Positions 3,244 to 8,880 of a stretch of DNA of 37,354 nucleotides are shown piece by piece. A program made the position numbers and the translations under genes. Origin of the DNA: Terriglobia bacterium (GTDB lineage Bacteria > Acidobacteriota > Terriglobia > UBA7540). Position 1 is the stretch's first letter; every line of letters begins with the position of its first letter. The stretch is from contig JAIQGA010000009.1 of assembly GCA_020072925.1 (NCBI GenBank), positions 1 through 37,354 on the forward strand, written 5' to 3'. Below the pieces are notes generated by a model that ran no database searches, was not told the origin of the DNA, and saw nothing but the letters and a program-made list of their open reading frames with translations.

Positions 3244-4491
3244 CTAACGAACGGTATCCTTCGTTGACGTGCCGATGCTTGGTAGGCGGCCCCTCGATCG
3301 GTAGACAGCTTTCCTTGCTGCTTCCGGGGACTTTCCTTCTTGGTCCTGAAATTCTCTGCACTCTTCCTTTCGTTGGACCTTTTCGATCCGGTAGGCGGTG
3401 ACCTTCAGTACCTCAGCTCGCGGAATCCGGATCAGCCCGTCATCGCCACGCTGGCCACGAATCCTTTCTTGACGGATTAGCCTGTATAGCGTGTCCTTGC
3501 TCACCTGGAGTTGGAACGCTGCCTCGGGAACCATGTAGCTTTCCGTTGTTCTATCGTAGGTGGGTTGGAATTCGGGTCCGTCTGCGCCGGGAAGCCGGCG
3601 GAGTATCTTCTTGACGTACATACGGAATCCGTGAGGGTGTTCAGGAAAGGAAAAGTGCTTTAACATGTGCGCGCAAGCAAGCTCGACAACCTGCTTAGGC
3701 GTGAGATCGCATTTCCTCGCTGCCCATTTGATGCTTGTCCCAAAGTTTTTTCGCAGGTAGGTTTCGAATTCTCGTGTGAGGCGCTCGTCCACATCGATCA
3801 CCACGAGTTGGGCCATCGCAATCAGAAGCTGCGCCCTGAGGTCTGCGCTAGGGCACTCCTCGTTCCAGTATATGCCTCGGCTCCTAGGCACTGACCCAGT
3901 CTGCCAAGTGATGTCCCGAACGCTCGAATCCCCGCTTAGATCAACCACGGGATCATCAAGACGATCGGGGTCAAGGTATCCGCCTAAGGCTCGCCGGAAG
4001 GATCGGACTTTACTTTTGTCAACGCCCGAGCCCTCCTGCTCCACCCGCACAAAGATCACGCGCTCAGCCGCGGAGACCGGTAAGACGAGCAGCGGGTTCA
4101 CAGCATTACCGGCCGCGTTCTGGGGATCGCCCTTGCTGTAACGAGGGGGCACTCGCGCGTATTTGAAACGAACTTCAAGGCAGTGAGGGGACTTGGCGTT
4201 GAGATTCGGAACAATGCGGACTTCGGCCCAATATGTCTCGGCGACGACTTCTCCTAACAAATCGTGGAAAGGTCTGCTAGCAGCCCTGGGCCTACTCGCC
4301 CCAGAGGCGTCCAAGATGATCGGCTCTGGTTTGTCCGCATCGCCGTCAGTCAAAAGTTGATGGAGGACACCCCACTCATCGTGGGCGATTATTGGGTGAC
4401 CCAAGCTTATCGCCCTTGCCCACTCCTCCAATCGGGAGGCAAGCCAGTTCACCCCTTCCCAATCATTGTCGAGGTTCGGCCTATGTCCCAT
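3244..4491 (-). CDS. Unknown protein with C-terminal excisionase/MerR-type HTH
   Basis: I do not recognise the first 300 residues. A segment around residues 310-360 (YMVPEAAFQLQVSKDTLYRL) is a typical excisionase/MerR-type DNA-binding helix-turn-helix, followed by a lysine/arginine-rich tail. The reading frame stays open to an ATG at 4536, but a good promoter (TTGCTC, 17 bases, TATAGT at 4498-4526 on this strand) lies inside that extension. It places the transcription start at about the ATG at 4491, so I start there (415 aa) and infer a leaderless mRNA. It diverges from the small HTH gene at 4557. It is probably a regulator or DNA-binding protein of the element. Confidence 0.65.
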   Translation of the reverse strand: MGHRPNLDNDWEGVNWLASRLEEWARAISLGHPIIAHDEWGVLHQLLTDGDADKPEPIILDASGASRPRAASRPFHDLLGEVVAETYWAEVRIVPNLNAKSPHCLEVRFKYARVPPRYSKGDPQNAAGNAVNPLLVLPVSAAERVIFVRVEQEGSGVDKSKVRSFRRALGGYLDPDRLDDPVVDLSGDSSVRDITWQTGSVPRSRGIYWNEECPSADLRAQLLIAMAQLVVIDVDERLTREFETYLRKNFGTSIKWAARKCDLTPKQVVELACAHMLKHFSFPEHPHGFRMYVKKILRRLPGADGPEFQPTYDRTTESYMVPEAAFQLQVSKDTLYRLIRQERIRGQRGDDGLIRIPRAEVLKVTAYRIEKVQRKEECREFQDQEGKSPEAARKAVYRSRGRLPSIGTSTKDTVR

Positions 4492-4497
4492 ATTGCA

Positions 4498-4526
4498 ACT
4501 ATAAGCGGGTGAGGCAATGCGAGCAA
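4498..4526 (-). promoter_or_regulatory. Sigma-70-type promoter for the 3244-4491 gene
   Basis: On the minus strand TTGCTC (4526-4521) and TATAGT (4503-4498) are separated by exactly 17 bases. The expected start point falls on or next to the ATG at 4491, leaving no room for a ribosome-binding site. None is visible there. Confidence 0.5.
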
Positions 4527-4550
4527 GTGCAGGCATAGGAGCGAAGGAGA

Positions 4551-4562
4551 TTGCATATGCAA
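4551..4562. promoter_or_regulatory. Palindrome spanning a start codon
   Basis: TTGCATATGCAA is a perfect 12-bp palindrome whose centre contains the ATG of the gene at 4557, just after its AAGGAGA ribosome-binding site. It sits between two divergent HTH genes, so an operator for either product is plausible but unproven. Confidence 0.35.
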
Positions 4563-4790
4563 CACGAACCTATCTCGGTCTCGCGATGGGAGGCCGCGCG
4601 TCTTCTTGGGATTTCAACGCGAACTGTCGACTACCTCCTGGAAAAGAAGGAACTTACTCCTCGTCGGGTCGGCCGCAAAGTGTTGATTTCATATGAAGAA
4701 CTCCAGGCGTTCGCTCGGCGGGACCACGCGAGCCCAGCGAGGCCGAACAGGTCTTCCTCGAGCCCACTGCCCCGAGGAGGCGACAAATGA
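4557..4790 (+). CDS. Small excisionase-like HTH protein
   Basis: The 77-aa protein is almost entirely one helix-turn-helix of the excisionase/MerR (HTH_17) type: VSRWEAARLLGISTRTVDYL for the helices, then VGRKVLISYEELQAF for the wing. Proteins of this type bind DNA and either regulate element genes or assist the integrase in excision. I use the ATG at 4557 rather than the TTG at 4551 because AAGGAGA (4544-4550) is six bases before the ATG. The C-terminus is basic and serine/proline-rich. Confidence 0.8.
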   Translation: MQHEPISVSRWEAARLLGISTRTVDYLLEKKELTPRRVGRKVLISYEELQAFARRDHASPARPNRSSSSPLPRGGDK

Positions 4791-4874: not shown

Positions 4875-5336
4875 GTGCGCGTATCTGCCTTCAAGATTGA
4901 CCCCAATTGGGACGAATGGTTCGCTCTTATCACTCGAGGTTTCTTGACCGAGTTCGCATTCGCCATGAGCCGGAACGCTTGGGTGCTCTACTTAACCCTG
5001 GCCACTTTCTACAACAGGCGCCAAGCGCGCGCATTCCCCACGCTGGAGAGGATCGAGACTGTATGTCCCCTCGGTCGATTCTCGCGTTCCCGGGCACTGC
5101 GAGAACTACGCAAGTTGGGACTCGTAGAAGTGTGGGCCGAGCGGCGCGGGCGCAGAAGGAGAACTTTTTACCGCTTGCTCCACGCGGACGCGAAGGGACA
5201 CCACAAGGCCCAACTACAGCAGGCCACGTGCGAGGAGATATTCGAGCGGGCAGTGAAGGGGGTGCTCCCACCGGGCTACGAATGGGTGCAGCGAGCCCAC
5301 CTCAAGTCGGGGCGGAGCGTCTGCGTATGTCAGTAA
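4875..5336 (+). CDS. Winged-helix protein, plasmid/phage replication-like
   Basis: The 153-aa protein has an N-terminal helical region, then a winged helix (about residues 55-100: FPTLERIETVCPLGRFSRSR, RELRKLGLVEVWAERRGR). The layout resembles the DNA-binding part of plasmid Rep or phage O-type initiators, in which one HTH chooses between alternative conditions and the wing is very basic. GGAGGT at 4861-4866 supports the GTG start. The following 250 bp contains palindromes and direct repeats that could be its binding sites. Function as initiator or regulator is inferred; the fold assignment is moderate. Confidence 0.65.
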   Translation: MRVSAFKIDPNWDEWFALITRGFLTEFAFAMSRNAWVLYLTLATFYNRRQARAFPTLERIETVCPLGRFSRSRALRELRKLGLVEVWAERRGRRRRTFYRLLHADAKGHHKAQLQQATCEEIFERAVKGVLPPGYEWVQRAHLKSGRSVCVCQ

Positions 5337-5363: not shown

Positions 5364-5450
5364 CGCAACTTTCTTGCCCCCAGGATTGTTGCGGTTTTCG
5401 CGACAATGCTGGCCATGTTTGTTGCGAGTTTCGCAACAGTCTTGCCCCCA
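5364..5450. repeat. Palindrome and direct-repeat cluster (possible origin or operator)
   Basis: Two copies of CGCAACnnTCTTGCCCCCA (5364-5382 and 5432-5450, 17 of 19 identical) flank two inverted repeats. The first has arms ATTGTTGCG/CGCGACAAT at 5385-5393 and 5399-5407 with one mismatch. The second has arms GTTGCGA/TCGCAAC at 5421-5427 and 5431-5437, perfect. All share the TTGTTGCG core. An AT-rich tract (about 5490-5502) follows. The arrangement just after a Rep-like gene resembles an iteron origin or autoregulatory operator. Confidence 0.6.
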
Positions 5451-5587: not shown

Positions 5588-5818
5588 ATGGACTTTTTCG
5601 AGTTGCTAGAAGTAGACCGCGAAAAGTTGCCCCGCCACACGGCGGAAGCTGCAGATAAATGCGAGGAACAATGGGAAGAGTGTGGCAGACCGACCAACCC
5701 TCAGCGCCTGGCCCGGTTCCTTAGCGATGCATTGAGGTCTTGCACCGAAGAAGGATTGCGCTACCCGAAAGTGCTGTTGCTGCGGCTCAAGCAATTGCAG
5801 CGAGGCGAATGGCCCTGA
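5588..5818 (+). CDS. Small acidic protein of unknown function
   Basis: The 76-aa protein is not recognised. It is mixed charged and mostly helical by eye, with two cysteines, and contains no membrane segment or motif. A good ribosome-binding site (AAAGGAG) lies 8 bases before the ATG at 5588. It sits between the Rep-like gene and the Spo11-like gene within the mobile element, which suggests an accessory element function but says no more. Confidence 0.6.
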   Translation: MDFFELLEVDREKLPRHTAEAADKCEEQWEECGRPTNPQRLARFLSDALRSCTEEGLRYPKVLLLRLKQLQRGEWP

Positions 5819-5935: not shown

Positions 5936-6793
5936 ATGGCTTATAGGTCTAGGTCTACAAGGCGCAGCCCGGCCGAAATGGCCAATATTCGAGAGGCACT
6001 GTACAAAGTGTTGCAGGCCGACAACCCCATGACAGTTCGCCAAGTCTTCTACCAACTTGTGAGTCGCGGAGTAATTGCAAAGACCGAGACCGAGTACAAG
6101 CAAACCGTGGTTCGACTCCTCACGACCATGCGCCGAGCGGGAGAGCTACCGTTTGGTTGGATCGCAGACAACACACGTTGGATGCGCAAACCGCGGACCT
6201 ACTCGTCCATCGATGAAATGTTGTCTCTGACGGCTGTAACTTACCGGCGTGCAATTTGGGACAGCCAGCCTGCCTACGTTGAGATCTGGCTCGAAAAAGA
6301 TGCCTTGGCAGGCGTGGTCTGCGAAGAAACTGGCCCCTGGGACGTGCCGTTAATGGTGACCCGAGGTTACCCGAGCGTGTCGTATCTGTACGAAGCAGCC
6401 GACGCTATCAGGGAACAAAGGAAGCCGGCGTACCTCTACTATTTCGGCGACCTGGACCCATCGGGAGTTGACATTACACGTACGGTGGAACGCGGCATCA
6501 GGGAATTCGCACCGAATGTGGATCTCTTCTTTCAACGAGTGGCCGTCACTCAGCAGCAAGTCGAGGAATTGGGCCTTCCCACGCGCCCGACAAAGGTGAC
6601 GGACAGTCGAAGCAAGAACTTCAGCGGAGAGAGTGTAGAGGTAGACGCGATCCCGCCCCCTCAACTCCGCGACTTAGTAAAAGCCTGCATCGAGAAACAC
6701 ATTGACCGGCGGTTACTCAGGAGGACCCGGAAAGTCGAGGCGGCAGAGCGTGAAACGCTCGTCGTGATTCAACAACAGATGCAGCGATGGTAG
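5936..6793 (+). CDS. Compact Spo11/topoisomerase VI A-like protein (5Y-CAP + Toprim)
   Basis: The 285-aa protein has the two parts that define topoisomerase VI subunit A and Spo11. An N-terminal winged-helix segment carries NPMTVRQVFYQLVSRG, matching the T-x-R-x-x-[FY]-Y pattern around the catalytic tyrosine; Tyr39 is the candidate. A Toprim domain follows, with VEIWLEKDALAG (Glu120, Glu116 nearby) and YYFGDLDPSGVDI (Asp172, Asp174) as the metal-binding residues. It is shorter than typical A subunits (about 350-400 aa), and no GHKL-ATPase B subunit is encoded in the window. The family is known to cleave DNA through a 5'-phosphotyrosyl bond. Stand-alone compact forms have been reported on mobile elements (Topo mini-A, from memory). 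The ATG has no clear Shine-Dalgarno site; an in-frame stop at 5888 limits the start. Activity is inferred. Confidence 0.75.
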   Translation: MAYRSRSTRRSPAEMANIREALYKVLQADNPMTVRQVFYQLVSRGVIAKTETEYKQTVVRLLTTMRRAGELPFGWIADNTRWMRKPRTYSSIDEMLSLTAVTYRRAIWDSQPAYVEIWLEKDALAGVVCEETGPWDVPLMVTRGYPSVSYLYEAADAIREQRKPAYLYYFGDLDPSGVDITRTVERGIREFAPNVDLFFQRVAVTQQQVEELGLPTRPTKVTDSRSKNFSGESVEVDAIPPPQLRDLVKACIEKHIDRRLLRRTRKVEAAERETLVVIQQQMQRW

Positions 6794-7309: not shown

Positions 7310-7510
7310 ATGAAGAAGAACCCCGCAGCACAGCAACTTGGACGACTCGGCGGCTTGGTGAGAGGAAAACAGCTCACTAAAGCTCAGTTGTCGGAAATGG
7401 GCAAGAAGGGCGGTAAGGCGAGGGCGAAGAAACTGAGCACGGCTGAGCGAAGGCGAATTGCGATGCTGGGTGTGGCAGCCCGCGAACGCAAGAGAAAGGG
7501 GAAAACCTAA
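7310..7510 (+). CDS. Small basic GGKA/KGG-like protein upstream of integrase
   Basis: The 66-aa protein is very rich in Lys, Arg, Ala and Gly, with internal repeats LGRLGGLVRGK and MGKKGGKARAKK, each followed by a short helix. This resembles small stress-type KGG proteins and nucleic-acid-binding peptides. Its stop codon overlaps the ATG of the integrase (TAATG at 7508-7512), so the two are translationally coupled. It may be a DNA-binding accessory factor. The function is not known. Confidence 0.7.
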   Translation: MKKNPAAQQLGRLGGLVRGKQLTKAQLSEMGKKGGKARAKKLSTAERRRIAMLGVAARERKRKGKT

Positions 7511-8769
7511 TGCGGAACAGGAAACAGCATGGGATGATCATTCGCATCGGGGACCGCTGGTATGTGCGCTATTGGGAGCGTCGGAACGTAAGCGGGAAAG
7601 TCGAGCGAAAGCGTGCGACGCATCCCCTCGGCCCAGTGACAACACGTGGGAAGCGGCCGCCCGCGGATATTGTGGTTGAAGCTGAGCGGTACATGGCGAC
7701 GGTCAACAGCGGCTCGATTCCCGCTGAGCGAATCGTCAGGATCGGGGATTTTGTCGAGCGGGTTTACCTGCCGTGGATTGACCAGCACAAACGGCCCTCA
7801 ACAGCGAAGGGCTACCGCGACATTTGGCAAGATCATCTGAAGCCCCTCGCGGAGAAGGTCTGGCTCAGAGACACCCGGACGTTCCACGTCCAAGGTTGGC
7901 TAGACCATATCGGCGCCGGCAATCTCAGCCGCAATACGCTGAAGCACGTCAAGAGCGTAGTCAGCGGCATTTTCACGCTGGCAAAGCAGCAGGACTATTT
8001 CCAAGGAGAGAACCCCGCCCGCGACACGGCAATCAATCCTCGTGCCGCCGAGCCTCAAGAAACCTATGCCTACAGCCTGGACGAGATAAAAACCATGCTT
8101 GCCCTGCTTCCCGAGTCCGCTGCTGCGGCCTTCGCGGTTGCCGCGTTCATGGGGTTGCGACATGGCGAGATTCAGGGGTTGTTGTGGGAGAACTACCGCG
8201 ACGGCGAGATGTACGTGTCGCGCTCGATTTGGAATGGGCGCGTGACAGATCCCAAGACGCGCAAAGGCCGTGCGCCTGTCCCTGTGATTCGGCAATTGGC
8301 GGACCGGCTGGAAATGCATCGGCTGCGCTCGGGGAACCCGCAGACTGGCCCGATATTCATTAACGCTGTCGGCAAACCGATGTGTCTCAACAACATCGCC
8401 AAGCGGGTAATCATTCCGGCATTGAACCGCTGCGAGGCTTGCAAGAAAGCAGAGTCAGCCCACCAGAAGGCGGAGCACGAGTACAAGCGGGACAATACCA
8501 TTCCAGAGTGGCACGGCTGGCACGCTGCCCGACGTGGTCTCGGAAGCAACCTGTACCGCCTGGGAGTGCCTGAAATGGTAATTCAGCGAATCTTGCGGCA
8601 CGCGAACGTGAGCACCACCGCTACCTACTACATCAAGACGGCGGCTGACGACGTTCGCAACGCAATGACGAAGTTAGAGAATCGTATCGCAGAGTCCGGG
8701 CAAGTTCTAACGGACACTGTCGGGACACCAAATGCCCAAGCGCCCGGTGGGACTGGGACTATCCAATAG
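7510..8769 (+). CDS. int: Tyrosine recombinase/phage-type integrase
   Basis: The 419-aa site-specific recombinase has an N-terminal AP2-like arm-binding domain, a SAM-like core-binding domain (about 75-165) and a catalytic domain. The active-site residues are visible: Arg217 in GLRHGEI, a lysine in the TDPKTRKGRAPV hairpin, His338-x-x-Arg341 in HAARRG, His364 in LRHAN and the nucleophile Tyr373 in TATYY. All are intact, so it should be active. The region between the hairpin and the HxxR motif carries an insertion with CEACKK. It ends 34 bp before the CCA end of a tRNA-Arg gene, the usual position for an integrase of a tRNA-targeting element. Confidence 0.95.
   Translation: MRNRKQHGMIIRIGDRWYVRYWERRNVSGKVERKRATHPLGPVTTRGKRPPADIVVEAERYMATVNSGSIPAERIVRIGDFVERVYLPWIDQHKRPSTAKGYRDIWQDHLKPLAEKVWLRDTRTFHVQGWLDHIGAGNLSRNTLKHVKSVVSGIFTLAKQQDYFQGENPARDTAINPRAAEPQETYAYSLDEIKTMLALLPESAAAAFAVAAFMGLRHGEIQGLLWENYRDGEMYVSRSIWNGRVTDPKTRKGRAPVPVIRQLADRLEMHRLRSGNPQTGPIFINAVGKPMCLNNIAKRVIIPALNRCEACKKAESAHQKAEHEYKRDNTIPEWHGWHAARRGLGSNLYRLGVPEMVIQRILRHANVSTTATYYIKTAADDVRNAMTKLENRIAESGQVLTDTVGTPNAQAPGGTGTIQ

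Positions 8770-8803: not shown

Positions 8804-8880
<77 letters not shown>

Follow-up and report, generated by a model that had tools for sequence, protein, structure and literature searches.

An intact Mini-A gene, encoding a stand-alone Top6A/Spo11-like protein, beside an integrase and tRNA-Arg in a Terriglobia bacterium

Topoisomerase VI performs ATP-dependent strand passage with Top6B as its ATPase partner. In topoisomerase VIII, the A part either forms one polypeptide with a GHKL B part or has such a part encoded next to it. Spo11 is a meiotic enzyme that makes 5' covalent double-strand breaks with a 2-nt overhang. Takahashi et al. (2020) are said to have given the name Mini-A to proteins that resemble type IIB topoisomerases and are encoded by viruses, plasmids, and integrated elements. 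These compact relatives of Spo11 and Top6A have no assigned function or partner. The function of the family is stated as unknown in a review (PMC8084294), and no biochemical activity of a Mini-A protein was reported in the literature found. The Mini-A of Pseudomonas phage NP1 is shown as an example in another review (PMC7614492). JetD and MksG of the Wadjet systems have the Toprim dimer fold in common with Mini-A; their CAP domain contains no catalytic tyrosine, and they act with an SMC complex (PMC10586767; MksG, PMC10123090).

We analyzed a stretch of 37,354 nt (the window) from contig JAIQGA010000009.1 of a Terriglobia bacterium (GCA_020072925.1). The ORF at 5936–6793 on the forward strand has an ATG start, 285 codons, and no internal stops, and it is an intact Mini-A gene. 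Pfam and NCBIfam scans of the protein gave nothing above a cut-off, so it may look like an orphan. PHROG 6247 ('DNA topoisomerase') matched residues 3–282 with an E value of 1.5e-60. By tblastn, homologues were found in 70 phage records and 52 plasmid records, most of them covering 80% or more of its length. They included the NP1 Mini-A (37% identity, 7e-37), archaeal plasmid records annotated 'Topo Mini-A' (9e-21), and Haloarcula californiae icosahedral virus 1. The nearest relatives (63–70% identity) were in Acidobacteria-type (Terriglobia, Acidobacteriia) and Planctomycetota metagenome assemblies and in two viral contigs.

The window protein has the same length as published Mini-A proteins and is similar over the whole length to recognised members (NP1, archaeal Topo Mini-A, PHROG 6247). 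It also shares the predicted catalytic Tyr in the winged helix, the Glu and DxD in the Toprim domain, and the lack of an encoded B subunit (PF09239 was absent from the host genome), and it probably lies on a mobile element as they do. It almost certainly belongs to Mini-A, an already described family to which the gene adds one member. The compact A-only proteins of mobile elements that the earlier note had mentioned are this same family. A difference is that the window gene lies beside a chromosomal integrase and tRNA-Arg, not in a phage genome; otherwise it is ordinary. Mini-A was scored in 13 of the 396 sampled genomes of the host phylum and in 12 of 211 genera, the 13 including one genome (G041) whose 69-residue match (1.3e-4) seems spurious. 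Mobile DNA would be expected to show such a sporadic spread. One copy is present in the host genome. Two relatives elsewhere are interrupted: the one at L022:3846–4718 is split by a stop into two ORFs of 212 and 75 aa, and L011 (the G103 copy) has an internal TAG.

The predicted catalytic tyrosine lies in the winged-helix (5Y-CAP) motif T33-V-R35-Q-V-F38-Y39, encoded at 6032–6052. The Toprim metal-binding glutamate, Glu120, is encoded at 6293–6295, and the Toprim DxD motif, D172-L-D174-P-S-G, at 6449–6466, all on the forward strand. The earlier note had read T-x-R-x-x-F-Y (Tyr39), Glu120, Asp172, and Asp174 as a Top6A/Spo11 arrangement; each was found at its residue, in the Top6A/Spo11 order and spacing. 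Y39 to E120 is 81 residues and E120 to D172 is 52. The corresponding distances in mouse SPO11 are 86 (Y138 to E224) and 53 (E224 to D277) (PMC11922746).

Twenty-eight homologous sequences with 25–68% identity to the window protein were aligned. Tyr39, whose conservation among homologues was a check set beforehand, was present in 28/28, as were Glu120 and Asp172; Asp174 was present in 27/28. The other residues found in all 28 sequences were R35, R66, D78, G144, S147, G171, and G177, and T33, K220, and E235 were found in 27. Position 38, which precedes Tyr39, was F in 14/28 and Y in 8. F or Y is the rule there, as in Spo11/Top6A, in which Y-Y is usual at the tyrosine pair and F-Y occurs in yeast (PMC11922746). 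Codons of the gene and of six close relatives differed at 0.20–0.24 of second positions and 0.56–0.64 of third positions. The differences were mainly at third codon positions, indicating that the Mini-A protein is under purifying selection.

The 3D structure was modeled using AlphaFold2 from a 14-sequence alignment (mean pLDDT 85.6, pTM 0.73). In a Foldseek search of the PDB with the model (E ≤ 0.001), all seven matches were Top6A, with both the winged helix and the Toprim domain covered and with moderate TM-scores of 0.42–0.51. VIA-align gave Z 11.7 against Methanocaldococcus jannaschii Top6A (1d3y_B; rmsd 4.5, 212 residues). The aligned span, 11–255, includes the Toprim domain as well as the winged helix that carries Tyr39. 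The Z score was 10.7 against M. mazei Top6 in the cleavage state and 8.9 against yeast Spo11. MksG reached Z 10.0 with the Toprim part alone (residues 78–254), and the rmsd to JetD was 8.7. A match to another Toprim family would have told against the earlier proposal, and it was Top6A that matched in both programs. Sequence searches of the PDB, whether with the protein alone or with seven of its close relatives, yielded no match. The sole PDB match of a profile of the 28 sequences was 1d3y, which was weak (E 0.17) but aligned at both the Tyr motif and the DxD motif. In this match, Tyr39 aligns with position 35 of 1d3y_A, which we take to be Tyr103 of M. jannaschii Top6A by the known numbering.

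The modeled protein thus has, as predicted, the Top6A fold of topoisomerase VI in both domains, and it has the winged helix, Toprim domain, Tyr, Glu, and DxD in common with Top6A. It is about 60–75 residues shorter than the Top6A chains in 2zbk and 9o8p, with about 14% identity. Unlike Top6A, it is not recognized by Pfam TP6A_N and has no Top6B. The Top6B transducer domain (PF09239, Topo-VIb_trans) had no match in the whole host genome (95% complete), whereas control archaea were positive, which supports the earlier proposal of a compact 285-aa protein without a B subunit. TP6A_N and JetD_C were not found in the host genome either, and the controls were positive where expected. No HATPase was present among the scanned genes neighbouring Mini-A. 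The host genome therefore showed no Top6B ATPase partner as in topoisomerase VI. Nor was there a fused or adjacent GHKL B part as in topoisomerase VIII: the protein has 285 aa with a Top6A-like part at 11–255, and PF09239 is absent.

To the left of Mini-A lies a 430-aa protein with a C-terminal excisionase-like HTH_17 (3244–4536, reverse strand; 6.4e-7). A 77-aa HTH_17/excisionase-like protein (4557–4790, forward; TIGR01764 excise above cut-off, 1.7e-10) and a 153-aa Rep-like winged-helix protein (4875–5336, forward) follow. The Rep-like gene had been proposed earlier; it is supported, yet weakly (HTH_36, 4.6e-6; replication initiation PHROG_270, 2.3e-4). Two 19-nt direct repeats (5364–5382 and 5432–5450, together 5364–5450) with the palindromes GTTGCGGTTTTCGCGAC and GTTGCGAGTTTCGCAAC sit between the Rep-like gene and Mini-A. 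The repeats are identical at 17 of 19 positions, and the best of 60 shuffles reached 15. The origin-like repeats of the earlier note thus exist as a direct repeat, though in just two copies, and the pair with its palindromes is a candidate origin or operator. A 76-aa protein (5588–5818, forward) had no family match above cut-off in Pfam, NCBIfam, and PHROG scans. Farther left, at 1805–2475, several palindromic copies of CCTGCAGGACTGCA lie in a region where convincing genes are few.

To the right of Mini-A are small HTH or basic proteins, then a 419-aa tyrosine integrase (7510–8769, forward; Phage_integrase, 8.8e-12; PHROG_1, 3.8e-50) and tRNA-Arg(CCT) (8804–8880, reverse). The 3' end of the tRNA gene faces the integrase, and the tRNA gene is a probable integration site. 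This layout is probably the right end of an integrative element, with Mini-A carried on such an element at tRNA-Arg(CCT). To locate the left end, the window was searched for another copy of the 3' end of the tRNA-Arg gene; none was present, even when 3 mismatches were allowed. In an empty-site comparison with relatives, the tRNA-Arg did not adjoin the flanking gene. Homologues of the Rep-like protein and integrase were rare in the sampled genomes of the phylum, and none occurred in Mini-A carriers save the host; there is therefore no sign of a conserved element family.

Truncated copies of the tRNA-Arg(CCT) 3' half occur elsewhere in the host genome (G000). About 50–57 nt of it (window 8804–8848) recur at C453:21409, C428:233, C428:28213, and C297:8005, and no tRNA gene was found at these places. 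The two copies on contig C428 are 28 kb apart. Several integration events could have left these copies as attachment-site scars. C453 was considered as a continuation of the window, but overlapping ends gave no support for the join.

Gene neighbours were also compared among relatives. The gene that Mini-A overlaps or abuts codes for a CHC2 zinc-finger protein in L001, a primase-helicase of the D5 type in L004, a VapE-type helicase in L005, a polymerase/primase in L006, and a replication initiation protein in L030. Ligase and Sak4-like annealing genes lie beside it in phage NP1, and a Sak4 gene (L023) or a helicase gene (L025) lies downstream in two other loci. An integrase or serine recombinase is on the same locus in L001, L002, L003, L005, L024, L028, L048, L050, and L051, and terminases are present in L006, L030, and L051. 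Mini-A is thus associated with replication and mobility genes in several relatives, though some phages differ: in Salmonella BP12C, Xanthomonas AhaSv, and Stenotrophomonas Suzuki it is next to nucleotide-metabolism, lysis, or unlabelled genes, not replication genes. Prophages and elements are rich in replication and mobility genes anyway, which limits the weight of these neighbours.

Mouse SPO11 dimers cut both strands in vitro without a B-like partner, via hybrid active sites (PMC11922746), and cutting is therefore compatible with the absent B subunit. The window protein resembles Spo11 in fold (Z 8.9), catalytic residues, and spacing, and like Spo11 it might in principle need no B subunit for cutting. 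It differs from Spo11 in being a bacterial mobile-element protein with no core-complex partners known. By this analogy, Mini-A is likely to act as a Mg-dependent homodimer that cuts by Tyr39 transesterification without a B subunit. Tyr39 of one subunit would attack a phosphate held by the Mg-binding Glu120, Asp172, and Asp174 of the other in a two-metal transesterification. Two staggered cuts would open both strands, the protein would stay covalently on the 5' ends, and no ATPase subunit would be required. The substrate may be the DNA of the element itself as it replicates or recombines following excision, and the breaks would normally be resealed or handed to recombination enzymes. Because several relatives adjoin primase, helicase, or replication-initiation genes, often near integrases, we infer with moderate confidence that Mini-A serves replication or recombination of its own element. 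Gene context favours this role over an attack on the host.

A less probable reading is that Mini-A, like Spo11, cuts both strands in the element, or at the origin, without resealing them, and so starts recombination-dependent replication. The missing ATPase/B subunit makes controlled strand passage unlikely, and the partner-free cutting by mouse SPO11 dimers (PMC11922746), the Sak4-like annealing gene adjoining Mini-A in NP1 and downstream in L023, and the Rep-like gene and repeats directly upstream in the window agree with such breaks. However, no recombination-mediator gene adjoins Mini-A in the window, several relatives adjoin primases or helicases instead of recombination genes, and no Mini-A cut site is known. 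A bolder form is improbable: Mini-A would be a prokaryotic Spo11 whose programmed covalent breaks, placed close to the rep gene and the repeats, let small integrative elements start replication by recombination.

We consider it very unlikely that Mini-A is a Toprim nuclease of the JetD/MksG type that destroys foreign or host DNA. Its Toprim part has weak Pfam and PADLOC similarity to DUF2399 and JetD, and MksG aligns with Z 10.0. However, the DUF2399/JetD matches cover the Toprim core with scores far below those for Mini-A, and the MksG alignment is limited to residues 78–254. JetD has no catalytic tyrosine in the CAP domain (PMC10586767), whereas Y39 is invariant in the 28 aligned sequences. 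JetD_C scored 13 bits against the window protein, below the cut-off of 22, and none was found in the host genome. A JetD identity was therefore rejected. The absence of a reported activity for the family would also suit a dead or structural DNA-binding remnant without catalysis, but the conservation of Y39, E120, and D172 (28/28) and D174 (27/28) and the purifying selection on the gene leave this reading with very little probability.

Replication or recombination of the element is thus the preferred role. The window gene adds a member and a gene-neighbour hint to a family already described. An intact bacterial Mini-A gene beside an integrase and a Rep-like gene is convenient material for asking whether the DNA cut by an A-only enzyme is resealed or stays broken, a question that bears on the origin of Spo11 from a topoisomerase.
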